Assembly: GCA_016795465.1 (NCBI GenBank)
Contig: JAEUHK010000124.1
Location: 1-64,000 of the forward strand
DNA from: Verrucomicrobiaceae bacterium
GTDB taxonomy: Bacteria; Verrucomicrobiota; Verrucomicrobiia; Verrucomicrobiales; Verrucomicrobiaceae
DNA: 64,000 nt
Direction of reading: 5' to 3'
Made by a program: the position numbers and the translations under genes. Position 1 is the stretch's first letter, and each line of letters begins with the position of its first letter. Positions 47,904 to 64,000 of this stretch are shown piece after piece. Below the pieces are notes generated by a model. That model was not told the DNA's origin, did no database searches, and was given only the letters and a program-made list of their open reading frames with translations.

Positions 47904-49067
47904 TCACTTCTTCTTCAGCGCCTGATCAATGTCCTCCCAGAGGTCCTCGACATGCTCGATGCCCACGGAGAAGCGCACGAGGCTGTCGGTGACGCCGGCG
48001 GCTTCGCGGACGTCTTTGGGGAAAGAGGCGTGCGTCATGCTCGCGGGATGCGCGACGAGGCTTTCGATGCCGCCGAGGCTTTCGGCTTGGGTGAAAAGGC
48101 GCAGGCGGCGGATGAAATCGAGCGTCTTGGCGTAGCTGAGGCCGAAATCGGCGAGCAGCATGCCACCGCCGAGCTTCATCTGCTTCTTCGCGAGCTTGTA
48201 CTGCGGGTGGCTGGTCAAAAATGGATACTTCACGCTCTTCACGCCTTTGCGATCCTGCAGACGTTTGGCGAGTTCGAGGGCGTTCGAGCTATGGCGCTCG
48301 ATTCGGACGGCTTCGGTCTTCGCGCCGCGTGAGACGAGCCACGCGTCGAAGGGGCTCGGCTGCAAACCGAGAGCTTTTTGGGCGAAGATCATCTTTTCCT
48401 GCCACTCATCGCTGTTCGTGCACACCGCGCCGCCGAGGCAGTCGCTGTGACCGTTGGTGTATTTCGTCGTGCTGAGCTGCGAGAGGTCCGCGCCGAGGTC
48501 GAGCGGCTGCTGGAGCAGGCTGGAGGCGAAGGTGTTGTCCACGGCGACGATGCTGCCGACTTTGTGCGCGGCTTCGGAGATCGCTTTGATGTCGAGGATC
48601 TTCAAAAGCGGGTTCGTGGGCGATTCGATCCAGATGAGCGCGGGTTTGAGCTCCTTGATGAGGGCGTAGTTCGCCGGGTTGGTGAGGTCGGCGTATTTGA
48701 TGCGGATGTCGAAGCGGCGCAGCACGCGCTCGAACAGGCGGTAGGTCGCGCCGTAGATCTGCTGCTCGCTGAGAATGGTATCGCCCGCTTTGAGCGAAAA
48801 CATGATGGCGCTGATGCTGCTGATGCCGCTGGCAAAGATGGTGGCGTGCTTCGCATTCTCCAGGCTGGCGAGCGTGGCCTGGAGATTGCGGAAGTTCGGG
48901 TTGCCGCTGCGTGTGTAATCAAAGCCGCCGGGGTTTCCCGTCTCGAAGGTCGAGGTCATGTAGATCGGCGGGATCACGGCGCCGGTTTCACTGCGCCAGT
49001 CCTGCCCGACGTGGATGGCACGGGTCTCAAAACGGGCGTCGGCGGGGATGGTGGGGTCGTCCTTCAT
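47904..49067 (-). CDS. Trans-sulfuration PLP enzyme (cystathionine gamma-synthase/lyase family)
   Basis: A 387-residue PLP protein. Family blocks are ETRAIHVGQDWRSETGAVIP, YTRSGNPNFRNLQATLA, then LIWIESPTNPLLKILDI, and the Schiff-base lysine in STTKYTNGHSDCLGG. The C-terminus shows LFTQAESLGGIESLVAHP and FSVGIEHVEDLWEDI. Members make cystathionine (MetB), cleave it (MetC/CGL), or act as O-acetylhomoserine sulfhydrylase or methionine gamma-lyase; the sequence alone does not decide between these. It sits 5 bases from the convergent methyltransferase and about 50 bases below the giant gene. Confidence 0.92.
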   Translation of the reverse strand: MKDDPTIPADARFETRAIHVGQDWRSETGAVIPPIYMTSTFETGNPGGFDYTRSGNPNFRNLQATLASLENAKHATIFASGISSISAIMFSLKAGDTILSEQQIYGATYRLFERVLRRFDIRIKYADLTNPANYALIKELKPALIWIESPTNPLLKILDIKAISEAAHKVGSIVAVDNTFASSLLQQPLDLGADLSQLSTTKYTNGHSDCLGGAVCTNSDEWQEKMIFAQKALGLQPSPFDAWLVSRGAKTEAVRIERHSSNALELAKRLQDRKGVKSVKYPFLTSHPQYKLAKKQMKLGGGMLLADFGLSYAKTLDFIRRLRLFTQAESLGGIESLVAHPASMTHASFPKDVREAAGVTDSLVRFSVGIEHVEDLWEDIDQALKKK

Positions 49068-49117: not shown

Positions 49118-52100
49118 TCAGTTGCTGGTGACGCGGAGGCGGACGAATTTGGCTCCGCCGAGATCGCTGGACGGCGTGACGCGAACGGTGACCGTCTCGG
49201 TGGTGCCATCGCCGGTGGGAACGGCAGATTTTTCGACGACGCTGGCTCCGGTGTCGTCCCAGGTGAGGAGATCGGTGCTGGTCTCGACGATGTAGTTCAG
49301 GCCCGCTCGCTGGATGCGGCGGCGGAATTGCATGCAGAGATACTTTTGGCCGCTACCGCCATCGGTTTCAGTGAGTGCCGCGGGGAGCATGCTGCGGGCA
49401 TTGGCGGAGCCTGCGGGGATGCCAAGAGCGTGCTCGAGGAGTGCATCTATGCCGTTGCTTTCCGGATCGCCGCCAGGCGTGGCGATGCGGAAGACGGTGA
49501 CGGTGGTGGTGGCGGTGTTGGGCGGGACGGCATGGTCCGCCGCAGTGACGGTGATGGAGTTCGTGCCATCGGTGAGGCCGGTGAGGGCTGAGGTCCAGTT
49601 CGCGAAGGCGTTTGATGTGCTGGCGGCATTGCCCGCAGCAGTGACGCTGACGACTCCGCTGGTGGCATCACTGGCGGTGCCGGCGAGGGTGGCTGTGGCG
49701 GCTGTGGTGGTGAGTTGCGGGACGGTGATGACGGGTGGCGTGGCGTCCTGGGTGGAGGTGACGACGGGGGACCATGCTCCAGGGAAAGCGAGGACACTTT
49801 GTGGAATGAAGCTGAGCTGCCAATCGTGGAGGAGTGGGGTGAGGGAGGGATTGGTGGAGGAGAGATTCGCACGAAGACGAAGCGCAGGTGCGGTGATGTA
49901 GCCTAGATTCGCACCGTTGATGACGTTACTGGCGAGAACGGCACTGGTGGTAGCGTCGAGCACATCGATCGTGAGAGTCGTGCCTGATGGGACAGTGGTG
50001 GTATAGCGGAGGGTGCCCCAGGACTGGCGGACGCTGGGGGAGATGATCGGGGAAAGAACGGTGCCGCTGGCGAGGTGGTTCCTCGGAGTGATGGTGAGGC
50101 TGAGGTCATCAAAGAGTGCGGCAGTCCCCGTGACGAAGGCGCGGAGGCCAGCACGGCCAGCGACGTAGCGTGTGTCGTAGAAACTGAGATTCGCGTTACC
50201 GGCGCTGGTGAGGATGGGAGTTTCTGAGACAGCTCCGGCGACGACGGAGACTTTCCAGGCGTTGAGGGTGAGATTGGGGCCTTTGGCGCTGAAGCGGAGC
50301 TTGAAGATGTCGCCCGCAGCGACGGTGACGGAGGGGAAGCTGGTCACGGTGCCGTTGAGGTAGCCGAGAGAAATGTTGGCGAGGGTGGGTGAGCTATGAC
50401 TGATGTTAGCGAGGTAGCCATAGGGCGTGGTGGTGGTGCCGCTGGTGGTGGTGCCGCCGCGTAGGATGAGCCCACAACTCGTGCTGCTGGCAGGTGTCTC
50501 GATGCAGAGGTAACTTTCGATACTGCCATCCGCGAAGGTGTTGGAGGCGGTGTCAGCGGCGAGGGCCCAGCCATAGGTGCCGGTGATGCGACCTTCGAGA
50601 TCGCCGCCTTGATTGATGGGGAGAGGCGGGGTGGTGTTCGGGCCGGTGGTGAGGGAACTGCTGGTGAAAAGATAGCCGGAATTTCCGCCGAGGACGTCGA
50701 AGTAGCTGCTCCAGGCATTGCCCGTGAGAGCATTAAAATTTTCCGTGGTGGTGATGGAGAGTGCTGGGCTGGAATAAAGTGCAACACTGCCACCATGACT
50801 GCCGCTGGTGGTGCCAGAGTGAGTGGAATTCGAAAAATCTCCCCAGTCAGTGTCTTGCCAGAAATCACTGGTATAGAAGGCGTTGTTATGAGCACGGACG
50901 CGGTAGTAGTAGAGGCGCTCTTCGGGGAGTATGCCGGTGGTGACCATGGTGCTGGTAATGGTGGCATTTCCTGTCCAGGCGAGCGGTGAGAAAGCCGTGC
51001 TGGTAGCGGCCTGGATTTCGTAGCGATTTACATTGGTGTTGGAGGGGGCCCAGGTGAGCGTATTCGTGCGTCCGCCAGTGAAAGCGGGTTCGGTAACAAG
51101 GATGGGTTTTTGTGAGGCTTGAATGGTGAGGCTGCTCACGGTTCCGGAGCGGCCTGGACGATCCTGAGCACGGAGGATGGCGTCTTTGGAGAGTCCATTG
51201 ATGGTGACATTTCCAGTCCAGGCACCCGAGGTGAGGGTGGCATTCTTCGGCGTGATTGTGAGGTTCGTGTATAGCAGCAGGCGCAACTGTGGCTGTGACA
51301 TCGTGCCGAAAGGAGTCGGGGATGTGCCTGACCATGTGATGGGAGCACTGAGGGTGCTGTTGTCTGTGCCGTACACAGTCATGAGTGCCTCGGCAGGATC
51401 GTGACGTGAGGAGATGATGTTGGTGGCAGCGGTATTATCGAAGCTGATATCCACCATGAGGCTATTGACGCCATCGTAGCTGAAAAGCGTGGAGAAAGGG
51501 AAGGTGTGCCAGCCATTGCCCGTGGTGGTGAAAGTGGAGGAGTGAACGGTCGTCCAGCCCGTCGATTCCCAGCTTGAGCCAGCCGCGTAGCTGGTGAGAG
51601 CGGTATGACGGAGGCGGATGGTGAGATTGTTGAAAACGGTGCCACTGAGGCCAGTGAGGTTCAGAGAGAGTCCTAGGATCTGCTGCGGCTGCCTACCGAG
51701 CTGCTCAGCCGTGTAGATGGTTTGAGTGCGTGCATCATGCGAGCTGCCGTTGAAGGGTGTGCTGGAGAGTATAGTTCCACGGCCGACGAGGCGCTCTCCC
51801 GAACCAGGAGCGCGGATGCTGAGGTCAACGGGGCCACTGTAGCTGGTATCCGCAGCGCCACTCGGTGTGACGGCGCTGATGGTGACGCTGTAGGGCGTGC
51901 CAGAGATGAGTTCGCGGCTCGTGGGTAGTCCACTGATGAGGAGGCTTGAGGCCTGTCCCTGCGCAGAGCCGAGATCAAAAGGGGTAGAGAAGCTGCTCGC
52001 TGAGCCGCTGAGAGCCTCGAGCCGCAAACCTGTGCCCTGGCCGCTGAGGGTGAGATCTCCTGTCCACATACCCGCTGTGAAGTTTCCCGTGTTCGCAGGT

Positions 52101-55100
52101 GTGAGGGTGACGTTTTGTGCCGTGCCGAAGCGGATGTCAGGGCGTGTGACGGAGGGGGTTCCGAGTGGTGTGAGGCCGCTCCAGCCGAGGGGATCGCCAT
52201 CCGCACTGTCAGAGAGGTAATGGAGCGTGCGGTAGGCGGTGCCTGCCGTAGCCTGGACGATGCCAGCGGCGCTGGGGGCATTGCCATCGAAGCTGATGTC
52301 CACGAGCACGTTCTGCCTGCCATCATAGGGGAAGGGAGTGGTCAAAGGAATGCTGTCCCAGCCGGTGGCCGTGATGCTGTGCGTGCCGCTGTAGCAGACA
52401 GTCCAGCCAGTAGATTCCCAGCTCACATTGCTGGAGGCGTAGTTCTGCAGCGTGGTGTGCTTCATGCGCACGGTCAGATTTGTGAGTGGATGGCCTGGCA
52501 GGGTCGTTACGTTGAAAGCGATGGAGTCGATGCTCCTCGCCGCGCCGATCTCCTCAGCGGTGTAGAGGCTCTGCGTGCGGCCATCGTGAGAGGAGGTGCC
52601 GAACAATGGCGTGAAGGAAGTATCTCCGACACCTACCTCACCCGTGCCATGCACTTTGAGAGAAACGGGGTCGGTATGGCTGGCGACGGTATTGCCGTTC
52701 ACATCCTGCGCGGTGAGAGTGATGGGGATGGGCTGGTCGGAGGTGACCTGAGGTGGCAGGCCGGAGAAGTGGAATTTGGCGATGGTGGCAGGGATGATGT
52801 TGAAGGCATTGCTGCTGCCGCTGGCGGCCGCGGCGGCATCCGTGACGGTCAGGACGGCATTCGTGGCCAAGCTGCCGAGGGTGACGGCGGTGGTGCATGT
52901 GCCTGCGGTGAAGGCTCCCGTGCTGGCGGGAGAGGGTGTGAGCGGGGTGGCACCATCAGCGGCGGTGAGAGCGGGATTGCCGGTGTAGGTGGTGATGGTG
53001 GCGTTGTCGATGGCGCGGGCGGTGAAGGTGACGTTGAAGGGCACATCCCGCACCTGCGGGCCTGGAATGGTGGAGACGAGGAAGCTGTGCAGCTCGTTAT
53101 CAGCGATGGAAATGGTGGCCGAGCCGCTATCGGCATGGGTGTAGGCGGCGGAGATGTGGACGTTTTGCGCCCCGTCCTTCACTGTGTCATTGACCACGTT
53201 GAGCGTGAAAGCGGCCGACAAGGTTCCGGCTGCGATGGTGACGGTGGCTGCGGCGGGTGCCGCCTGAGCAGGCACGCTGGAAGACAGATTGATCACGGTG
53301 GCGGCACTTTGCACCGATGAAATCGAGACCGTGCCTGGAACCGTGCCCACAGACTCCGAGACCGAGGCTGGAAGGGTGACCGTGAGCACTGGCAGGGAGA
53401 GGATGAATGCGGCGGAGACACCCGTGGCGCTGCCACTGGTCGCAGTCAGCGTGGCGCTGCCACTGCCCAGCACAGAGACATTGCCGGTCCACGCCCCACC
53501 CGAGAATGCCCCCGTGGCGGCAGGGGTGACAGACGCGGCTGGTGTCGATAGAGACGCGGTGCCTGTGAAGCCGGTGGCGGGCTGGTTGTCCACCGTGCGG
53601 GCATTGATGGTGACCGAGAAGGGGGCTCCGGAGATGCGCGGCGAGGAGATGGTGTTCCAGGTGAAGTAGCTGAGGTCGTTGTCGTTGACGATGATGTTCG
53701 TGCTGGCGCTTGGGACGCCGGCGACACTGACGGTGATGGTGGCAGTCTGGGCACCGTCTTGGAGCGTGTCGTTGATGATGTTGAGCGTGAAATTCGCCGA
53801 AGTGGAGCCGGCGGGGATGGTGACGGTGGCAGCCGCCGGATTCGCCTCGGTGGTGTCATTGGAGGAGAGATTTACCGTGACGGCAGAGGCCTGGGCGGCG
53901 CTGATGGTGACCGTGCCGGAAACGCTTCCGGCGGATTCGGCGGCGGCGGCTGGCAGCGTGAGGCCGAGGGTGTAGGATGGGATGTCATTGACGTTGAAGC
54001 TGTTGGAAAGGCCGGTGATGGAGCCGCTGGAGGCCTGGAGCTGGATGTTTGTCGCAGGGGCGGCAAGCGTCAGATTTCCAGTCCAGACACCACCGGAGAA
54101 GGCACTGGTGACGATGGGGCTAAGTCCCACGCTCGTGCCGGAGGCCACGCCGAGTCGAATGTCAGTAATCCTGCTGTCTGGAAAGGCGGCAGGGACGAGA
54201 CCGGACCAAGTTAAGGGGTCAGCACCGCTACTGGTGTAGTAATTGATTGTCCTCGTGCTTCCAGACCTTGTCGTGCCGGCGACCGTTGGCCGATTGGCCG
54301 TCGTGCTGGAGGCACGGTAACTCATGTCCACCATGAGATTACTCACACCATCGTAGGCAAATCCGGTGGTGAAATTAAAAGTCGCATAGCCAGCAGTACT
54401 GAGTGAGGGACTACCCTGATACACCGTGGTGAAACCACTGGATTCCCAGATGCGGTCGCTGGCATCGGTGTAACCCGTGCGTGAGGTATGTTTGAGACGG
54501 ATGGTGAAGTCCGTTACGCTCACGGTGTAGGGAACGGTAATGTTGATCGCCAATGAGGTCAGTGTGCCCGCGCCGCCCAACTCACTGGCTAAATGCACCT
54601 GTTGTGTTCTGCATTTGCTGAAGATGGTGTTGAAGGGGACCCAGCATGGATCTGCATTGCTCCCCACGTCGCGGATAATGCCGGAGCCTGCGACCGCAAG
54701 GTTCGCCACCGAAGTGAAGTCCGTGGCTGTGTTCCCCGCGACATCTTTTGCGGTGATGGTCACGGGAAAGGCTGTCCCACTCGTTTGAGGCGAGGTGATG
54801 GTGCTCCACACGAACTGGCTGGCCGTGCCTGTCCCCACAGCAAAGGCATTGCTCGATCCTGAGGCGACGGCGGCAGCATCCGTGAGAGTCAATACCGCAT
54901 TGGTGGCAAAGCTTCCCACGGTCACTGCGACCGTGCGGCTTCCATTGCTAAAACTTCCCACACTGGTCGGCGTGACGGTCAGCGCCGTGATGCCATCCAG
55001 GCCGGTCAGGGCGGGCGTGCCGGAGTAGTTGGTGATGGTGGCGTTGTTAATGTCCCGAGCGGTGAAGGTGACGTTGAAGGGCTGGTTGCGGACTTGCGGG

Positions 55101-58100
55101 CTGCCGATGCTGGAGAGGAGGAAATTCGCCACGTCATTGTCCGTGACGGTCAGCGCCCGCGTGCCGGTGGTGAAGCCTGCGGAGGCGGCAGAGATGGTGA
55201 GGCTCTGCGAGCCGTCTTTGATCGTGTCATCGAGGATGGTGATGGTGAAGGTCATGCTGCTGGCTCCCGCAGGGATGGTGGCCGTGGCGGGCACGGTGGC
55301 CTCGGTGGTGTCCGTGGAGGTCAAAGTGACCGTGGTGGCATTCTGCACAGGATTGGAGGCCGTAATGGTGGCGGATAGGGTGCCGCTGCCTTCCGCCACG
55401 GAGCTGGTGAAGCTGAGGCCGAGCGTGGCGGTCTCGTTATCCGTGATGGAGATGCTGGCGCTGCCCCCGGTCCAGCCGGCCATGCTGGTGCTGACGGTCA
55501 CACTTTGAGCAAAATCGATCAGCGCATCATCCACCGGCGTGATGGCAAAGGTGGCGCTCGTGCTGCCTGAGGGGATAGTGACGGTGGAGGGGACCAAAAG
55601 CTCCGTGGAATCACTGGAGGTCAGCGGCAGGGTGATGTTCGCTCCTGCGGCGGCTCCGAGGGTGACGGTGCCGGTCGCCGCAGCGGCATTTTCCGCCAAC
55701 ATGGCGGGAAGCGTGAGCGAGATGGTGGTGGTTTCATCATCCACGACGCTGAGCGTGCTGACGCCTGAATCGTAACCGGATGCCGAAGCGGTGAGAGTGC
55801 TGGTTTGAGTGCCATCGAGCAGTGTGTCATTAACAATAGACACAGGGAAGGTCGTGCTGGTCTGTCCGGCGACGATGGTGGCCGTGGCCGGGACGGTGGC
55901 GGCAGCGGTGTTCGAGGAGTTCAGCGCCACGATGAGATCGGTCACGGGCGCGGTGGCGATGCTGAGCGTGGCGGTGAGCGCAGCGCCACCCTCTGTCACA
56001 GAAGCCGCGTGATTGAGAGTTAATGCCCCCAAAGCAACGGCATTAAACATCGAGCTCATTCCCCCCACCACGCCAGAGCTGGCCCGCAGGCGAATACCAG
56101 TCCCAGAAGCATTCACCGCAACCTGCCCTGACCAGGCACCTCCTGAAAAACTTACCGAGCTGGAGGGGGAAATGGCAATGGGCAGGCCCGTCGAGAATCT
56201 CACGTTGGGCATGGATGACTGGGTGAAATTGTTGGCGTAGCCCCAGTTGTAAGGATCACCGTATCCCCAGGCTTTTAGATTGGCAGCGGCCATGTGCCTG
56301 GAGGGTGATACCAAGGTAGATTGGCATATCCCGGCCGTGGAAGAGCCGGCATTGTCAAAAACCATGTCCACGAGGAGGTTTTGCACACCGTTGTAGGCGA
56401 AGGGTGTGTCGAATACAAACTCACGCCACCCTGTGGCGGTGATGCTTTCCGAAGATCGTTGATAGACGGTGATGAGGCTCGTGTTGTCGAAACTGGTGCT
56501 GGATGGATAGGAGCCGGTGGCTGTGTGCTTCAATCGTATGCCAAAACGTGTCAGGGGCAGCGCAGGAGGCGTCGTGATGTTCAAAGAGATGCCGGTGAGC
56601 AGCCTCGACCCTCCAATCTCCGAAGGAATGAATATCATCTGGGAGCGGGCGCCATCATAGGAAGTATCCAAAGGCTTTCCGCTCGTGCTCGTGCCGGCGC
56701 CAATCGTCACTGGGGTGGATGGATAAACGGCATCAAGAGACGCAGTGCCGGCGAAGCTCGTGACCGTGTTTTCATAGGCATCCCTGGCGCTAAGGCTTGC
56801 GGCAAAGGGTACGGAGACTGTTTGCGGTGAAGGAACATTTCCCCAGGTGAAATGGTGCAGGGCACCCGCGCCGACGCTAAAAGCATTGCTGCTGCCGGTG
56901 GAGCCGCTGGCGGCATCCGTGAGAGTGAGCACGGCGGCGGAGGCCAGAGTGTTCACCGTGACGCTTTGTGTTTTTTGGCCAGAGCTGAACCCAGACAACG
57001 AGGTCGGTGTGACGCTCAGAACTGTACCGCCTGAGGCCGCCGTGAGCGCCGGGGTGCCCGCATAGGTGGAAATGGTGCTGTTATTGATGTCCTGGGCAGT
57101 GAATGTCACATTGAACGGTGCCCCGCGAACCTGACTGGCGGGCACGGCGGAGACGGCGAAGTGATGCAGATCGTCATCGAGGATCTGGATGGAGGAGGTG
57201 CCGGTGGTAAATGTGGCTGCTGCGGCGCTCACCGTGACGTTTTGCATGCCATCCTGCAGGGTGTCATTCACTGGCGTGAGAGTGAAGAAGCCGGACTGGC
57301 TGCTGCCTGCCGGAATGGTCACGGTGGCAGGCACGGTGAGCTCCGTCGTATCACTGGAGGAAAGGTTGATCATCAGCGCATTCGCCACACTGCCCGAAAG
57401 ATAGACATAGCCGCCGCTGACCACCGGAGCGGCTCCTTCGGAAAGGCTGTAGTAGTAGAGTTGAAGCCAGATTTGCCTGCTTTCATTATCCAGGACTTGC
57501 AAAGTGCCGGTGCCGGGTGTGGAGCCGGCGAGCGTGGCGGTGATCGTGGCCGCGATATTGTCTTCGATGATGTTGTTATCCGCCAGCGTGAGGGTGAAGG
57601 TGGCGCTGCTTTGCCCGGCCGGAATGGTCACGGTGGCAGGCACCGTCAGGCGGGAGAGCATGGAGGAGGCAAGCGTGAGCTTGAGGCTGCCAGCGGCGGG
57701 CGTGGCGAGAGTGACCGTGCCCGTGGCGGTCACCGTGGTGGAGGACTGCTCCGTCATGCTCGCGGGCAGGGTGAGAGTGACAGTGGTCGTCTCATCGTCC
57801 ACCACCGTGTTGCTGGCCGTGGCAGTGGGATAGCCCACCGCCAGCGCCCGCACGGTGACTAGAGCCGGACCGTCGAGCAGGGTGTCGTTCACCGGTGTGA
57901 CGTCGAAGCTCACGCTCGTCTGCCCGGCTGGCAGTGTCACCGTGGTCGGCACGGAGAGATCACCTGGCGTCAAATTCTCCAGCGTCACCGTGACATTCGC
58001 CGCGGGAGCCGTGGAGGCGGTCAATGTGCCACCATTCGTGATGGTGCCCTGCCCCTCGGTCATGCTCGCAGGCAGGGTGAGAGTCAGCGAGCCTCCAGAC

Positions 58101-61100
58101 GAGGTCGTCGTGACCGTGTTGCTCTTGCCAGAGACATTGGCCGCCGCCGTCGCCGTGACCTCAATGCTGCCGATGCTGCCCAAACGCACATTTCCAGTCC
58201 AAACACCATTGGCAAAGCTGCCGGTGGCTGGTGGAGAAACCTGGGCCACAACTCCAGACCTCACCAGCCGCAAGTTGGGGAGGGCATTGCCGGTGTAGGC
58301 ATAGGCACTGCTGCTCCAATTCAGAGGATCTCCAGAGTAGGCACCGGCATAGATTGTCCGGTTTGATGTGGTCGTGCTGTAGCGGATATTTGAAGCGCTG
58401 CTGTAGGAGCTGTTCACAAAGCTGATGTCCACCATCAGATTGCTGCTGCCGTCATAATCGAACGGCGTGGCAAAAGAGAAGTAATTCAAACCTGTTGTCA
58501 GGGTTTTGCTTCCCGCGAAAACGGTGGTCCACCCGGACGTCTCCCAGGAGGTATCGGTGCTGTAGTCCGCACGGCCGGTGTGTTTTAGGCGAATGGTAAA
58601 CTGGCTCGCAGCAGGCGAGCCGAGTGTGGCGACATCAAAGGCCAGTCCGCTGAGGCGTGCCGCCTGCCCAACCTCAGCAGGTGTGTAAATGCACTGGGTG
58701 CGATGGATCGCATAGCTTGTGTCGTGAATATACCAGGTGCTGGATGTGCCCGTGCCTGTGGCACCCTCACTTGCGGCAATCTGAAACGCAGAAAGCGCCG
58801 CTGTTCCCTCGAAATCCGTCACCGTGGCTCCTGAGGCGTCTTTGGCCCGTATCGTGGCGGAAACGGGCGTGTTCACCACCTGCGGGGTAGGCAGCGCGTC
58901 CCATTCCAGATGATGCACGCCCGGAGTGACCGTCATCGTGGCTGGCACGGCCAGCGGGGAGGTCAGGGCATCATTGCTCGTGAGAGAGATGGTGTCCGTG
59001 TAGGCGCCCGCCGCCAGTCCGCCAGCGATAAAGGTAACCGCCACGCTTTGGCTGCCGCCTGCAGGGATGGTGCCGGAGGCAGGCGAGACCGTGATCCAGC
59101 TACCGGAACCTGCCACATCGAGGAATTTTTCGAAGATGGCCTGCGTGGCGGCGTCATCCACATCGCCACCATTCACGGCGGAATAGAGCAGGTAATACAT
59201 GCGTGTGCGTGCCCCGAGGCCGGTGACATGGTGGTCATCACTATCCACTGTGCTGGAGAAGGACTGAGCCGCCGCCGCGTCGTTTTCGATGATGATGAGA
59301 TGGTTCACCGATTCCGCGTTATAGCTCGTATCTCCCCGTGCCCGCTTCACAAAGCCTTTGAAGGTCCGGCTGCCCCGCACCGCCGTCAGCACGGAGCCTT
59401 CCACGATGCCGAAGTGGTTTCCCGTTCCACCGCTGATGATGAACTCAGGAACACCGCTCATGTCCGCCGCCATGACAAACAGTCCCGGCACCTTGCGGGT
59501 GAAGTAGCGCCCGCCTGTGCCGAAGCTCGCCGAAGTGGCGATGACGTTGTTGCTGTAGTTCAGGTAGCTGGTCGGAGCCAGCGAGGTGCTCAAAGAGTTC
59601 CCGCCGTGATACATGTGTGAGCCGCCTCCATCGTAGATGGAGGTCCCCGTCTCCCCCTCGGTAAAATTGAAGCGGTTTGGCACCAGTGCGGTGATCTCCG
59701 CGTGGCGGGCATTGATGCCAGCGAGCACGTCCTCCAGCGGCGGGTTGATGGTGCCAAGAGTGCTGGCGCTCCAGGTCAGCGGTTCCGTACCGGTGTTGTT
59801 CAGCGCCAGCGGACGGGTCTTGGAGAAATTTTGCGCCACGCTCATCGCCAGGCTGGTCGGATTCACGGAAAGCCGTGGCCCGGCCGTCACATCAAACGCG
59901 TTTGACTGGTTCGTGGCGGTCGGAGAGGCCACGGTGAGCCTCACATTCACTCCCGGAGCCATCACACGCACATTTCCCGTCCACACACCGGCGGTAAAGC
60001 TCAGCGGCGTGGCGGGCAGCACGCTCAGTGTCCCGCCATCACCCGCCGCAGTCAGATTCACCGGCCCGCCCACCTCCGTGGTGATCGTCACATCGTTCAC
60101 ATCCTTCGCCGTGGCGGTGAAGGGGATGGCAGCTCCTTCCCTCACAGGCCCCGTCACGCTCGAAAGAGCGAAATGATGCACATCATCATCCAAAACGGTC
60201 ACGGCGGCTGTTTCGCTGATGAAGCTCAGCGCCGTGGCCGTGAGCGTCACAGGCTGCGTACCGTCAAAAAGCAGGTCATCCACCGGATCGAGGTCAAAAG
60301 CCGCAAAACTGGCCCCGGCAGGAATCGTGACCGTTTGCGAAGGAATCGCCGTCTCATCGCTGGAGGTAAGCGTGACCACCACCGCGCTCACCGCCTGCCC
60401 GGTCAGCGTCACTCGCGGCGTGGTGAGCGTCACCGCACCTTCCGCGAGGCTCGTCGGCATGCCGCTGAAGTTCAATTTCTTCAATTCATTGTCAGTGACC
60501 GTCAAAGTCACCATGCCTGCCGTCCATCCAGGCACGGTGGCGGTCAGATCGGTGCTCCGCGTGCCGTCCACCAGCGTGTCATCCACCACTGTGACCGTGA
60601 AGGAGGCCGTCGTGGCACCGGCGGGCAGCGTCACACTCGCGGGCAGCGTCGCCTCGCTGGTATCGCTCGAGCTCAAAGAGACCGTCACCGGCACCACCGG
60701 CGCGGCGCTGGATGTGAGCGTGGCGGAAAGCGTGCCATCTCCCTCCGCCGCCGTCGTGGCGGTCAGACTCAGCGTCAAAACCGCCGTCTCATCATCGTCC
60801 ACCGTCAGCGGCACGTTCACCGCCGGAAAACCCGCCGCCACCGCGCCGATCTGCGTCACCTGCCCACCATCCAGCAGCGTGTCATTGGTGATGTTCAGTG
60901 TGAATGCTGCGCTCGTGCTGCCAGACGGTACCGTGACCGTGGCCGTGGCCGGCGTGGCCGCTCCCGCCACACTCGAACTCACCGCCACCACCACATCCGC
61001 AGCAGGCGCGGGCGTGACCGTGACCGTTCCCGCCAGCGTCCCCGCGTTTTCCGCCGCTGAAGCCGCCAGCGTGATGCCCAACGTGCCATCTGTGACCACA

Positions 61101-64000
61101 TCGAAAGTGTTCGACTCGCCGAGAATGCCGCCAGACTGCGCACGGAACCAACCATTGGTGAACACCTCGCCTGGTGTTACCGAGCCATTCCATACCCCGT
61201 TCACAAAAGCGGCGCTCTGCGTCGGCGTGAGCAACCGCGGTGTGTTTTGCGGCCCGGCGGCGGCCACCGCGTTGGCGATCACACGATCCATTGAAGTGTT
61301 GGGCGTGTAATAATCCGTGCCGATGAGCACCACGCGGCCCGCTCCAACCTGCCGGTGGAGAACGACAGGATAGTTTGTTCCTACCTCACGGATAGAGACT
61401 GTTCCATTTGTTGAGGTTTGATAGGTACTGAGCCATTCACTGGTGATGGGCGGAACGATTCCAGTGTTCAGAAATGTGGTGCCAGCCAGTTCCAAGCTGG
61501 CTGTTTGCGGAGAGGAAACCTTGGTGACACTCAACAAACCTGTAGAGCTGAGAATGAGTGACTCGTCCAAATGATTGGAACAGACGATGATCATGCCACC
61601 TTGATTGACGAACTGATTTAATGCATCGCTCCACTGCGTGCCAAGACTGCTGAAAGTGGTATTTGAAGTGGCATTCTCCTGCTCGGGTATAAGCAAGACC
61701 TGCTTCCCGGCCAGCGCGGCAGTGAGATCCGCAGAGGTCGTTCCGGTAAACGAGGTTTCTGTGTAGTTCGTAAAGTAGCGGGAGATGGCTGCTTTTGTAT
61801 TCAGATACTCTCCTGCAATGTCCGCGTAGCCGATGAAGCTCGCCACCTGCACTGTGGGAGATCCGGCTGTGCCCGTGAAGGCCTCCAAACCCACCGTCCC
61901 CTCAAACCCCGTTACCGTCGCCCCGCCAGCATCCTTCGCGGTCACGGTCACCGCCACAGGCGCGTTCACCCGCTGGGGCGAGGGCACGATGTCCCACGCA
62001 AAGCTGGCGACAGGCCCGGTCACGTTCAGCGTCACCGGAACGGCCACGGATGGATTGGTGAGATCGTTCGAGGTGAAGGTAAGCTGGGCTGTGGCAGCAC
62101 CGAGTGGCAGCGTGGTGGCATTGAAGGTCACAGTCACTTCGGCGGAGGCTCCTGCGGGCACGCTGCCGGAGGCGGGAGAGGCCGTGAGCCAGGTTTGCGT
62201 GCTCGCCGCGTTCCAATTCATCGCGCCCAGCCCGGTGTTCGTGAGCGTGACCGTCCGCGTCTTGCTCGACTGCCGAGGAATGTCCAGGGTGAAGGAAGCT
62301 GGTGCCACGCCGATGCGAGGCCCTGTGAGCACGGCGAAGGGATTGCTCGCCGCCGTGGCCTGCGGCCCCGTCACGGTGATGCGCACATTCGTCCCGGCGG
62401 CCAGCACACGCACATTCTGCTGCCACACACCGTTCACAAACTCCGCCGCCGTCGGATACGAATAGGCCAGCGCCCCCGCATCTCCCGCCGCCGCCTGCGT
62501 CACCGGCCCGGCAACGGCCGGGAGAGTGGCGCCGTTCACATCCTTCGCCGTGATCGTGAGCGGGATGTTGGCCCCCTCGATCTGCGGGCTGGCAATGCTG
62601 CCGATGACAAAACTGGCCGCGTCATTATCCCGCACGGCGATCACATCGGTCAAAGCCGTGCCGCCGAAGGCGCTGGCGCTCACCGTCACATTTGCCGTGC
62701 CATCCAGAGCCGTGTCATCCACCACCGCCGCTGGCACCGCCGCCGTGCTTTGACCAGCGGCGATGGTGATCGAGGCCGGCACGGTGAGCTGGGCCGGATG
62801 GCTGGAGGTCAAACTCACCGTCACCGGCGTCACCGCCACACCGCCGAGCGTCACCACACCCGGCGCGGGCGTCGTTGGAGCGCCCTCATAGGTCTCGTCA
62901 TTCATGTTCAGCGTGATGGTGGCCGTCTCATCATCCGTCACCGCCACGCCGGCTGTGCCGCTGGTCCAATTCGCCACGCTGGCCGTGAGCGTGACGTTTT
63001 GCGTGCCGTCGAGCAGCGTGTCCTGCGGCGCATTGAGGGTGAATGATGCCTGAGACTGCCCTGCGGGAATGGTGATGAATTCCGGCACGATAATTTCCCC
63101 CGTGTCATTGCTGAGCAGGCTCACCTGTACATCACGCCCCGCCGCCGCCGGAATGCTCACGCTGCCGGTGGTGGCTGCCGCACCTTCGGCGAGGGTCGCG
63201 GGGGCGGTCAGTGTCAGCGTCGTCGTCTCATCATCCATGATGCTGATCGTGCGGTTGGCCGTGGTAAAGCCGGAAGCGGTCGCCGTGATCTGCGCCGACT
63301 GCGTGCCATCCAGCAGCGTGTCATTCACCACATTCAGCGTGAAGCTCACACTGCTCTGCCCGGCCAGGATCGTCACGCTGGCAGGCACCGTGACCTCCGC
63401 CGTGTTCGAGGAGGCCAGGCTCACCGTCGTATCTGCCGCCACCGTACCGCTAGTTTGTAGCGTTCCCGTGAGGCCGCCCGCGCTCTCCGCAGCATTCGCC
63501 GCGAAGCTCAGCGTCAGCGGCAGGATGTTCTGATACCCGCTGAAATTGCTCTCAACAAAATCCGCCGGCACTCCTGTGCCACGGGACAGGCCGATCACCC
63601 CGCTGGTGACGCCCACATCCAGGTGGGTGATGCGGATGCGCCCGTCGAAGAACATCTCGATCTGGAAGTTGCTCAAGTTTCCGCCTCCATAGGGCGGCAC
63701 ATTCAACCACGTCACCGCCGCCCGATCTGCCAGCTCACGCCAGGTCACCAAGCCTGTGCTCGGATATAGGTCCAGCAGCATGCCGGAGATGCGCGGCAGG
63801 GAAAAATGCGTGCCGGTGCTGATCGAGTAATTGCTGTCACCGTTCCCAAAAGTCACATAGCCGTTGCTGCCGACAAAAAAGCCGTTGTAGCTCGTGCCGT
63901 GGAGCTTCACCTGGTTTCCGCCGGTCAGAGACACGCTCGCATAGGTGTCATCGCTCATCGGCAGGCTCGCACCGCCTGCAGGGTCCGTGGGAAACGCAGT
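49118..64000 (-). CDS. Giant secreted multidomain protein (Calx-beta, host Ig-like repeats with inserted domains), 5' end outside window
   Basis: The frame runs unbroken from 64000 (first residues TAFPTDPAGGASLP before the ATG at 63958) to the stop at 49118, about 4960 codons, so the true start lies beyond the window. A nidogen-like or adhesin-type N-terminal region (DDTYASVSLTGGNQVKLH) precedes three interleaved repeat classes. About fourteen Calx-beta-like repeats of ~100 residues end in 'VxDDE/DNE'. About twelve host Ig-like repeats start 'HFxxSxIxxPQ' and end '...SxNAFxV'. BACON-like domains make the third class. Six host repeats contain an extra domain. The last ~600 residues hold an LamG/concanavalin-like domain and a verrucomicrobial-type C-terminal segment (LEHALGIP, then YIVETSTDLLTWDD). 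Likely a surface or matrix adhesin; calcium binding by Calx-beta is family knowledge. Confidence 0.88.
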   Translation of the reverse strand, partial: TAFPTDPAGGASLPMSDDTYASVSLTGGNQVKLHGTSYNGFFVGSNGYVTFGNGDSNYSISTGTHFSLPRISGMLLDLYPSTGLVTWRELADRAAVTWLNVPPYGGGNLSNFQIEMFFDGRIRITHLDVGVTSGVIGLSRGTGVPADFVESNFSGYQNILPLTLSFAANAAESAGGLTGTLQTSGTVAADTTVSLASSNTAEVTVPASVTILAGQSSVSFTLNVVNDTLLDGTQSAQITATASGFTTANRTISIMDDETTTLTLTAPATLAEGAAATTGSVSIPAAAGRDVQVSLLSNDTGEIIVPEFITIPAGQSQASFTLNAPQDTLLDGTQNVTLTASVANWTSGTAGVAVTDDETATITLNMNDETYEGAPTTPAPGVVTLGGVAVTPVTVSLTSSHPAQLTVPASITIAAGQSTAAVPAAVVDDTALDGTANVTVSASAFGGTALTDVIAVRDNDAASFVIGSIASPQIEGANIPLTITAKDVNGATLPAVAGPVTQAAAGDAGALAYSYPTAAEFVNGVWQQNVRVLAAGTNVRITVTGPQATAASNPFAVLTGPRIGVAPASFTLDIPRQSSKTRTVTLTNTGLGAMNWNAASTQTWLTASPASGSVPAGASAEVTVTFNATTLPLGAATAQLTFTSNDLTNPSVAVPVTLNVTGPVASFAWDIVPSPQRVNAPVAVTVTAKDAGGATVTGFEGTVGLEAFTGTAGSPTVQVASFIGYADIAGEYLNTKAAISRYFTNYTETSFTGTTSADLTAALAGKQVLLIPEQENATSNTTFSSLGTQWSDALNQFVNQGGMIIVCSNHLDESLILSSTGLLSVTKVSSPQTASLELAGTTFLNTGIVPPITSEWLSTYQTSTNGTVSIREVGTNYPVVLHRQVGAGRVVLIGTDYYTPNTSMDRVIANAVAAAGPQNTPRLLTPTQSAAFVNGVWNGSVTPGEVFTNGWFRAQSGGILGESNTFDVVTDGTLGITLAASAAENAGTLAGTVTVTPAPAADVVVAVSSSVAGAATPATATVTVPSGSTSAAFTLNITNDTLLDGGQVTQIGAVAAGFPAVNVPLTVDDDETAVLTLSLTATTAAEGDGTLSATLTSSAAPVVPVTVSLSSSDTSEATLPASVTLPAGATTASFTVTVVDDTLVDGTRSTDLTATVPGWTAGMVTLTVTDNELKKLNFSGMPTSLAEGAVTLTTPRVTLTGQAVSAVVVTLTSSDETAIPSQTVTIPAGASFAAFDLDPVDDLLFDGTQPVTLTATALSFISETAAVTVLDDDVHHFALSSVTGPVREGAAIPFTATAKDVNDVTITTEVGGPVNLTAAGDGGTLSVLPATPLSFTAGVWTGNVRVMAPGVNVRLTVASPTATNQSNAFDVTAGPRLSVNPTSLAMSVAQNFSKTRPLALNNTGTEPLTWSASTLGTINPPLEDVLAGINARHAEITALVPNRFNFTEGETGTSIYDGGGSHMYHGGNSLSTSLAPTSYLNYSNNVIATSASFGTGGRYFTRKVPGLFVMAADMSGVPEFIISGGTGNHFGIVEGSVLTAVRGSRTFKGFVKRARGDTSYNAESVNHLIIIENDAAAAQSFSSTVDSDDHHVTGLGARTRMYYLLYSAVNGGDVDDAATQAIFEKFLDVAGSGSWITVSPASGTIPAGGSQSVAVTFIAGGLAAGAYTDTISLTSNDALTSPLAVPATMTVTPGVHHLEWDALPTPQVVNTPVSATIRAKDASGATVTDFEGTAALSAFQIAASEGATGTGTSSTWYIHDTSYAIHRTQCIYTPAEVGQAARLSGLAFDVATLGSPAASQFTIRLKHTGRADYSTDTSWETSGWTTVFAGSKTLTTGLNYFSFATPFDYDGSSNLMVDISFVNSSYSSASNIRYSTTTSNRTIYAGAYSGDPLNWSSSAYAYTGNALPNLRLVRSGVVAQVSPPATGSFANGVWTGNVRLGSIGSIEVTATAAANVSGKSNTVTTTSSGGSLTLTLPASMTEGQGTITNGGTLTASTAPAANVTVTLENLTPGDLSVPTTVTLPAGQTSVSFDVTPVNDTLLDGPALVTVRALAVGYPTATASNTVVDDETTTVTLTLPASMTEQSSTTVTATGTVTLATPAAGSLKLTLASSMLSRLTVPATVTIPAGQSSATFTLTLADNNIIEDNIAATITATLAGSTPGTGTLQVLDNESRQIWLQLYYYSLSEGAAPVVSGGYVYLSGSVANALMINLSSSDTTELTVPATVTIPAGSSQSGFFTLTPVNDTLQDGMQNVTVSAAAATFTTGTSSIQILDDDLHHFAVSAVPASQVRGAPFNVTFTAQDINNSTISTYAGTPALTAASGGTVLSVTPTSLSGFSSGQKTQSVTVNTLASAAVLTLTDAASGSTGSSNAFSVGAGALHHFTWGNVPSPQTVSVPFAASLSARDAYENTVTSFAGTASLDAVYPSTPVTIGAGTSTSGKPLDTSYDGARSQMIFIPSEIGGSRLLTGISLNITTPPALPLTRFGIRLKHTATGSYPSSTSFDNTSLITVYQRSSESITATGWREFVFDTPFAYNGVQNLLVDMVFDNAGSSTAGICQSTLVSPSRHMAAANLKAWGYGDPYNWGYANNFTQSSMPNVRFSTGLPIAISPSSSVSFSGGAWSGQVAVNASGTGIRLRASSGVVGGMSSMFNAVALGALTLNHAASVTEGGAALTATLSIATAPVTDLIVALNSSNTAAATVPATATIVAGQTSTTFPVSIVNDTLLDGTQTSTLTASASGYDSGVSTLSVVDDETTTISLTLPAMLAENAAAATGTVTLGAAAGANITLPLTSSDSTELLVPSTVTIPSGSTSATFAITPVDDALIDFAQSVTVSTSMAGWTGGSASISITDNETATLGLSFTSSVAEGSGTLSATITASNPVQNATTVTLTSTDTTEATVPATATIPAGASSMTFTITILDDTIKDGSQSLTISAASAGFTTGTRALTVTDNDVANFLLSSIGSPQVRNQPFNVTFTARDINNATITNYSGTPALTGLDGITALTVTPTSVGSFSNGSRTVAVTVGSFATNAVLTLTDAAAVASGSSNAFAVGTGTASQFVWSTITSPQTSGTAFPVTITAKDVAGNTATDFTSVANLAVAGSGIIRDVGSNADPCWVPFNTIFSKCRTQQVHLASELGGAGTLTSLAINITVPYTVSVTDFTIRLKHTSRTGYTDASDRIWESSGFTTVYQGSPSLSTAGYATFNFTTGFAYDGVSNLMVDMSYRASSTTANRPTVAGTTRSGSTRTINYYTSSGADPLTWSGLVPAAFPDSRITDIRLGVASGTSVGLSPIVTSAFSGGVWTGNLTLAAPATNIQLQASSGSITGLSNSFNVNDIPSYTLGLTLPAAAAESAGSVSGTVTISAAQASAVTVNLSSNDTTEANPAAATVTIPAGSTSANFTLNIINDTLQDGAQTATITVSVAGVPSASTNIIVNDNDLSYFTWNTISSPRISGAPFSVTINARTVDNQPATGFTGTASLSTPAASVTPAATGAFSGGAWTGNVSVLGSGSATLTATSGSATGVSAAFILSLPVLTVTLPASVSESVGTVPGTVSISSVQSAATVINLSSSVPAQAAPAAATVTIAAGTLSAAFTLNVVNDTVKDGAQNVHISAAYTHADSGSATISIADNELHSFLVSTIPGPQVRDVPFNVTFTARAIDNATITTYTGNPALTAADGATPLTPSPASTGAFTAGTCTTAVTLGSLATNAVLTVTDAAAAASGSSNAFNIIPATIAKFHFSGLPPQVTSDQPIPITLTAQDVNGNTVASHTDPVSLKVHGTGEVGVGDTSFTPLFGTSSHDGRTQSLYTAEEIGAARSIDSIAFNVTTLPGHPLTNLTVRMKHTTLQNYASSNVSWESTGWTVCYSGTHSITATGWDSIPLTTPFPYDGRQNVLVDISFDGNAPSAAGIVQATAGTAYRTLHYLSDSADGDPLGWSGLTPLGTPSVTRPDIRFGTAQNVTLTPANTGNFTAGMWTGDLTLSGQGTGLRLEALSGSASSFSTPFDLGSAQGQASSLLISGLPTSRELISGTPYSVTISAVTPSGAADTSYSGPVDLSIRAPGSGERLVGRGTILSSTPFNGSSHDARTQTIYTAEQLGRQPQQILGLSLNLTGLSGTVFNNLTIRLRHTALTSYAAGSSWESTGWTTVHSSTFTTTGNGWHTFPFSTLFSYDGVNSLMVDISFDNTAATNIISSRHDPAEALMTVYGTDNSTLSAPITWSGTSPTPFGTMSQPQLRLLLYTNLTITPKNATLTSGAWTGNVTINGLSKDAILRAQDRPGRSGTVSSLTIQASQKPILVTEPAFTGGRTNTLTWAPSNTNVNRYEIQAATSTAFSPLAWTGNATITSTMVTTGILPEERLYYYRVRAHNNAFYTSDFWQDTDWGDFSNSTHSGTTSGSHGGSVALYSSPALSITTTENFNALTGNAWSSYFDVLGGNSGYLFTSSSLTTGPNTTPPLPINQGGDLEGRITGTYGWALAADTASNTFADGSIESYLCIETPASSTSCGLILRGGTTTSGTTTTPYGYLANISHSSPTLANISLGYLNGTVTSFPSVTVAAGDIFKLRFSAKGPNLTLNAWKVSVVAGAVSETPILTSAGNANLSFYDTRYVAGRAGLRAFVTGTAALFDDLSLTITPRNHLASGTVLSPIISPSVRQSWGTLRYTTTVPSGTTLTIDVLDATTSAVLASNVINGANLGYITAPALRLRANLSSTNPSLTPLLHDWQLSFIPQSVLAFPGAWSPVVTSTQDATPPVITVPQLTTTAATATLAGTASDATSGVVSVTAAGNAASTSNAFANWTSALTGLTDGTNSITVTAADHAVPPNTATTTVTVFRIATPGGDPESNGIDALLEHALGIPAGSANARSMLPAALTETDGGSGQKYLCMQFRRRIQRAGLNYIVETSTDLLTWDDTGASVVEKSAVPTGDGTTETVTVRVTPSSDLGGAKFVRLRVTSN
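51260..58790 (-). repeat. Five copies of a ~165-180 residue guest module in the giant protein
   Basis: Copies lie at about 58240-58790, 56180-56720, 54140-54700, 52110-52640 and 51260-51790. Each opens with a strand such as DTSYDGARSQMIFIPSEIG. It then has LxIRLKHTxxxxY, W(E/D)xxGWTTVYxG, a GWxxFxFxTPFxYDG turn, NLMVDISFxN, and closes near PLxWSG and DIRFG. Copies are clearly homologous but divergent. Each sits inside one of the host Ig-like repeats at the same place. By eye this DNA is less GC-rich than the flanking Calx-beta DNA. No family name was recognised. Confidence 0.8.
59120..59770 (-). other. ~200-residue domain splitting a BACON-like domain
   Basis: The BACON-like domain at 62010-62320 is intact (from GPRIGVAPASFTLDIPR to VPVTLNV). 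A second copy starts GPRLSVNPTSLAMSVAQ at about 59880 and resumes as WITVSPASGTIPAGGSQSV only at about 59110. Between them lies a different domain with AGINARHAEITALVPNRF, YDGGGSHMYHGGN and NHLIIIENDAAAAQSF. So one globular domain is nested inside another. Confidence 0.65.
61250..61840 (-). other. Rossmann-like (GATase1-like) domain inserted in a host repeat
   Basis: Within the giant gene this stretch encodes ADIAGEYLNTKAAISRYF, KQVLLIPEQENATSN, FVNQGGMIIVCSNHLDE, and AGRVVLIGTDYYTPN, the alternating strand-helix pattern of class I glutamine-amidotransferase-like or ThuA-like folds. It interrupts a host repeat between FEGTVGLEAF and its closing FVNGVWNGSV strand. Catalytic Cys-His-Glu was not confirmed, so a binding role is as likely as an enzyme. 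Confidence 0.6.

Follow-up and report, generated by a model that had tools for sequence, protein, structure and literature searches.

Split Ig-like repeats in the tail of a giant predicted M36 protease of Verrucomicrobiota receive unrelated domains at one hairpin

The tail of a giant protein encoded at the end of the window (the whole stretch of DNA analysed, 64,000 nucleotides) carries 12 homologous Ig-like repeats (hosts), six of them empty and six loaded with a second domain (guest): one beta-sandwich module of ~185 residues (G1) in five cases, and a Rossmann-like domain in the sixth. Hosts of the same family occur in other Verrucomicrobiota, where the same loop holds at least eight families of guests, and guests have been replaced both at orthologous slots and at the DNA level. 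We consider it quite probable that the protein is a secreted M36 protease with a beta-rich stalk of split Ig-like repeats, from which the guests would project sideways as likely binding modules, and that these are replaced by recombination.

The giant protein and its repeats

The single open reading frame at 49118-64000 (-) is still open at the window edge; its most likely start is contig position 66634, about 2.6 kb past the window, for a total length of about 5,838 residues. The N-terminal 900 residues include a hydrophobic N-terminus, an FTP propeptide motif (PF07504, 3.3e-6), an M36 fungalysin metallopeptidase (PF02128, 4.6e-111, above the curated Pfam cut-off) whose HExxH zinc motif is HEYTH (residue 514), and a BACON-like domain. 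Judged by family criteria (profile, HExxH, FTP), the head is a predicted M36 metallopeptidase. The sequence-only reading had described a giant surface protein: giant it is, but not a surface protein only, because the head is that of a protease (M36 here, a subtilase in several relatives). In relatives, subtilases as well as kelch, RCC1 and cadherin-like regions are found at the head. The tail within the window comprises LapA/Calx-beta-type repeats, BACON domains, the host repeats, and fn3-like and glucodextranase-B-like domains (Pfam scan).

The M36 head (contig about 63958-66634, locus L007) stands at 66% to locus L057, from another genus of the same family, versus about 49-50% to most same-genus copies; transfer of the gene between genera, or a misplaced contig, might account for this (estimated contamination of the assembly: 7.5%). 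The gene downstream, at 47904-49067 (-), encodes an ordinary PLP enzyme of Cys/Met metabolism (PF01053, 1.3e-126), and this neighbour showed no sign of being a dedicated partner gene. The features of the giant gene are as follows:

49118-64000 (-), C-terminal part of the giant open reading frame, about 85% of it
62327-62617 (-), host repeat h1, empty
61094-62008 (-), host repeat h2, loaded with the Rossmann-like guest
61232-61885 (-), guest of h2, a Rossmann/GATase-like domain (DUF7408 and Glyco_hydro_42M matches in relatives)
59885-60178 (-), host repeat h3, empty
59105-59761 (-), guest within the BACON domain after h3, a second kind of split host, kept in relatives
58103-58915 (-), host repeat h4, loaded with G1 (guest about 58241-58789)
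56870-57166 (-), host repeat h5, empty
56036-56857 (-), host repeat h6, loaded with G1 (guest about 56174-56734)
54833-55129 (-), host repeat h7, empty
53987-54820 (-), host repeat h8, loaded with G1 (guest about 54125-54697)
53396-53671 (-), host repeat h9, empty
52793-53089 (-), host repeat h10, empty, first half of the modelled dyad
51968-52780 (-), host repeat h11, loaded with G1 (guest about 52106-52657), second half of the modelled dyad
51116-51949 (-), host repeat h12, loaded with G1 (guest about 51257-51817)

From h1 to h12, the residues between the two host halves number 15, 218, 9, 183, 9, 187, 9, 191, 5, 10, 184 and 187. Profiles made from the empty or the loaded copies recover all 12 repeats in their own genome (complete matches, E 1e-30 to 1e-122), indicating that the repeats are not due to chance, and within that genome the profile search found the host in this gene only. 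The sequence-only reading had counted about twelve hosts, six uninterrupted and six interrupted by five copies of one module and one Rossmann-like domain; all were located at the places described, and the two kinds of guest were borne out.

The BACON domain is a second type of scaffold with the same guest-in-domain habit. Its guest, of about 219 residues, gave no Pfam match and is found at 46-70% identity in six other loci (L057, L063, L066, L067, L196, L206; BLASTP). Two copies of this BACON-split guest domain are present in L077.

One insertion site and many kinds of guest

Host profiles detected relatives among near genomes (38 of 143), in the class (32 of 286 genomes) and in the phylum (32 of 387), with up to 14 copies of the host in one protein; G1-loaded hosts were also present in one Planctomycetota contig and one Hydrogenedentes contig. 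Host halves were paired across 100 loci taken from the Verrucomicrobiota searches (234 pairings), and the loop length in the 234 hosts was bimodal: 5-34 residues in 112 copies, 134-374 in the other 122, and none intermediate. As the halves used for pairing had been cut at the loop by hand choice, an independent profile was prepared from empty copies only and run on all the proteins. It identified 149 unbroken and 110 broken copies, and all 110 breaks fell in the same loop (mode position 45-50 of 98). The bimodal gaps and this independent profile rule out chance or an alignment artefact, and the search by alignment for insertions at differing host positions failed to refute the single fixed loop that had been proposed from the sequence.

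The predicted structure of the h10 (empty) and h11 (loaded) dyad, modelled with 21 sequences, has a mean pLDDT of 92.7 and a pTM of 0.57, the latter leaving the relative orientation of the domains uncertain. The strands of the empty host (2-5, 18-25, 40-45, 48-50, 64-71, 75-84, 89-92, 96-99) correspond one-to-one to those on both sides of the guest in h11 (105-109, 120-128 and 143-152 before it; 328-330, 341-349, 352-361, 364-367 and 371-373 after it), and the guest (157-323) occupies the position of the tight hairpin between host strands 40-45 and 48-50. The 93 residues across both host halves of h11 superimpose on a region of PorU (rmsd 2.3, Z 10.1; VIA-align 2). Model residues 147-327 alone resemble beta-sandwiches of phage tail proteins and the lectin-like domain of Cwp84 (Z 9.9-11.7, rmsd 3.1-3.5; VIA-align 2); as these are generic beta-sandwiches, they say little about the ligand.

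Host and guest are both beta-sandwich in character and form one continuous polypeptide, as they would if both belonged to one larger domain family whose middle varies, with the guest a structural extension of it and not an autonomous unit. We regard this as very improbable: 112 hosts are complete without a guest, the Lamin tail domain and DUF4082 are Pfam families of their own, G1 occurs on its own, with no host detected, in other phyla (Planctomycetota, Armatimonadetes, Deltaproteobacteria, Chloroflexi, Bacteroidia), including three copies in tandem in L214, and the model shows host and guest as separate units. Structure prediction had been put forward as the check for one continuous fold of guest and flanks, and it failed to refute the nested arrangement, as the strands of the host continue beyond the guest.

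The model of the Rossmann-loaded host h2 is weak (pLDDT 57), so closure of this host around its guest is read from the sequence; the guest part shows alternating helices and strands. Models were made with window sequences and related loci, and the Rossmann-like guest thus had no homologues in its alignment. Foldseek returned only generic Rossmann/flavodoxin rows from this weak model, and for this reason the guest is given no family name. It had no Pfam match below E 0.01, and its profile had no match among PDB sequences. With regard to a glutamine-amidotransferase-like type (ThuA/DUF4350/GH42M), Rossmann-like guests of relatives matched DUF7408 (1.4e-7) and Glyco_hydro_42M (1.2e-4; 22.1 bits versus a cut-off of 25.8). 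The sequence search of solved structures gave nothing convincing for either the host or G1.

The 122 guests include 82 G1, 13 DUF4082-like, 11 Lamin-tail-like, five Rossmann-like, four sialidase-CBM-like, two PA-IL-like and two MAM/Reelin-like domains, and three singletons. Guests of relatives reach the Pfam cut-offs for the Lamin tail domain, DUF4082, Sialidase-like_CBM and Reelin_subrepeat-B; matches to PA-IL (just below), InhA-like_MAM and CBM_4_9 lie under them. For the Lamin tail (PF00932, cut-off 34.3 bits), L058 (47.2), L078 (47.1) and L172 (34.8) exceed the threshold, and by this profile their guests are classed as Lamin tail domains; L079 is below it (25.4). One host loop in L062 (contig G008:C23, ORF residues 3083-3456) contains two G1 in tandem (374 residues), counted as one of the 82. 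The subtilase ORF L127 (genome G169, 4,725 residues) has a tail in which empty and loaded hosts strictly alternate and which carries three different kinds of guest, in the order DUF4082, G1, PA-IL-like lectin, PA-IL-like, G1.

Duplication of repeats and exchange of guests

Empty and loaded repeats alternate in 76 of 88 neighbours, a value reached in none of 5,000 shuffles, and the empty/loaded state tracks the host tree (25 changes versus a shuffled mean of 78). From this alternation, and from the empty/loaded state following host ancestry, the five G1 of this protein most likely spread by duplication of an empty plus loaded dyad. Five independent G1 insertions are not supported, since the alternation and the host-tree pattern fit dyad duplication. 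The idea of evolution by insertion, advanced in the sequence-only reading, thus stands for a scaffold that receives guests but not for five insertions behind five equal guests.

The same alternation, the clustering of loaded hosts and the predominance of G1 (82 of 122 guests) would also be expected if G1 had been inserted once in an ancestor and the composite then duplicated, the apparent hotspot reflecting shared ancestry with little or no exchange. A single G1 entry followed by duplication is likely the history of the five copies in this protein. As an account of the socket we judge it unlikely: at least eight unrelated guest families share the loop, and guest type among loaded hosts hardly tracks the host tree (33 changes versus a shuffled mean of 38.9, on a tree of 88 columns that is poorly resolved). 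As the sole explanation it is refuted by guest changes at orthologous slots and by replacement in DNA, both described below.

In the M36 proteases of relatives the first loaded repeat lies about equally far from the start, and its guest, placed on the tree of the heads, is Rossmann-like (this protein, L065), Lamin-tail (L058, L060, L071) or G1 (the others), amounting to at least four changes of guest type at this orthologous slot (parsimony counted by hand). In both this protein and L057 the slot falls on residue 1584; their host strands are very much alike, yet the guests differ. L071 (Lamin tail) and L073 (G1) have 85% of the host N-half in common. At the DNA level, two ORFs of genome G189 (L132 and L133) are 93% identical on either side of the loop (1,034 nt ahead of it, 529 nt behind it). 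Between these flanks one ORF has a DUF4082 domain, whereas the domain in the other is unrelated to it. Similarity stops within about 10 nt of the guest ends, and the downstream junction is abrupt, the two being identical from CCCAGTCGCGATCGCC onward. The G189 assembly is fragmented and probably metagenome-derived, and two strains could be mixed in it; in that case the swap would still stand, but between strains. We read most G1 copies as products of dyad duplication, and the guests in loaded hosts as having been replaced. The plug-in scaffold suggested by the sequence-only reading gains support from the spread of guest families, the changes at orthologous slots, the replacement in DNA and the confident dyad model.

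Relation to known split domains and proposed role

The split-domain principle itself is known. In RTX adhesins, split Ig-like domains, named in AhLap, FrhA and MpIBP, project ligand-binding domains from the fibre, and glycan affinity was measured for a CBM guest (PMC12077191, PMC10865825; Graham et al. 2024 as cited there); in these adhesins the guest binds its ligand at its distal tip, away from the host. Of known systems this is the closest. In both cases an Ig-like domain within a giant extracellular protein of many repeats is broken by a whole second domain, often of a carbohydrate-binding kind, and completed afterwards. The break and the later completion are also seen in our alignments and model. 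The two termini of the guest are adjacent, which would let it stand out from the axis. The differences are that here one homologous repeat is used, in 14 or fewer copies per protein, both empty and loaded, with a fixed loop and the wide range of guests described; that the chain of AhLap leaves one split domain after the first strand, whereas here the exit is a mid-domain hairpin; and that the heads are proteases (M36, S8). RTX adhesins have a C-terminal RTX beta-roll and a type I secretion signal; no RTX repeat family was detected by Pfam in the window part of the protein, C-terminus included. By these tests the host works like a split domain, but the protein is not an RTX adhesin.

Compared with the M36 family (fungalysin, PF02128), the head is alike, and the tail of about 5,000 residues with its split domains is outside the family definition. 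Guests of relatives match Lamin tail (PF00932), DUF4082 (PF13313) and Sialidase-like_CBM (PF22585) at or above the curated cut-offs, but they are nested inside an Ig-like host rather than standing in line. The empty host belongs to the same fold class as the Ig-like folds of Big_1, filamin and invasin. Only two of 46 empty hosts reach even E 0.001-0.1 against Big_1 or Invasin_D3 (Big_1 best, 0.001), and the resemblance to a filamin domain stands in the fold (Z 9.6, rmsd 2.6; VIA-align 2), with a profile score below the filamin threshold (PF00630, 18.6 versus 26.9 bits). No Pfam family covering the host repeat was found, and the literature searched held no description of a socket of this kind in Verrucomicrobiota. 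As far as the literature could be searched, what seems to be new is the host family, the fixed mid-domain hairpin, the layout with many empty and loaded copies, the range of guests and their documented exchange.

We propose that the M36 metalloprotease is secreted and carries a long beta-rich stalk of Calx-beta/LapA-type, BACON and Ig-like repeats. Some Ig-like repeats would be split domains whose hairpin opens to take a complete, independently folding guest; as both guest ends return to the host, the guest would project sideways and the stalk would stay continuous, the empty repeats serving as spacers. Guests are mostly beta-sandwich and lectin/CBM-like, would most likely bind glycans or other polymers, and could thereby hold protease and cell on the substrate, with a presumed selective advantage. 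Host and guest would evolve as separate units, dyads being duplicated and socket guests replaced via recombination, for which the conserved host halves could act as homology arms.

That the guests are binding modules on a secreted protease is the most likely reading, given the analogy with RTX adhesins and the largely CBM/lectin/MAM-like nature of the guest families; the Rossmann-like guest, a non-lectin, fits poorly with a purely glycan-binding role. The tail might otherwise be a passive spacer or wall-spanning stalk, its guests neutral decorations without binding in a permissive loop. In favour of this, the loop is evidently permissive and one guest is Rossmann-like; we nevertheless hold it to be rather unlikely, because CBM/lectin/MAM-like families are enriched among guests, different species retain G1 copies at corresponding positions, and split domains with tested ligand binding are known from RTX adhesins.

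Insertions of one domain into another are mostly reported as one-off events. The loop described here has received many unrelated domains and keeps exchanging them, and the rules of tolerated insertion (which loop, guest termini, linkers) become directly testable. The repeat offers a natural scaffold for domain display and an aid to the annotation of many uncharacterised verrucomicrobial giant proteins, in which the sequence between host halves is a candidate binding domain, and it extends the split-domain idea from RTX adhesins to predicted secreted proteases of another phylum. The chances seem to us evenly balanced that the Ig hairpin is a phylum-wide docking socket, where giant secreted proteins, extracellular proteases among them, from Verrucomicrobiota and from some Planctomycetota and Hydrogenedentes swap whole binding domains by recombination between the conserved halves of the host; if so, it would rewire the specificity for substrates or partners while leaving the stalk undisturbed.
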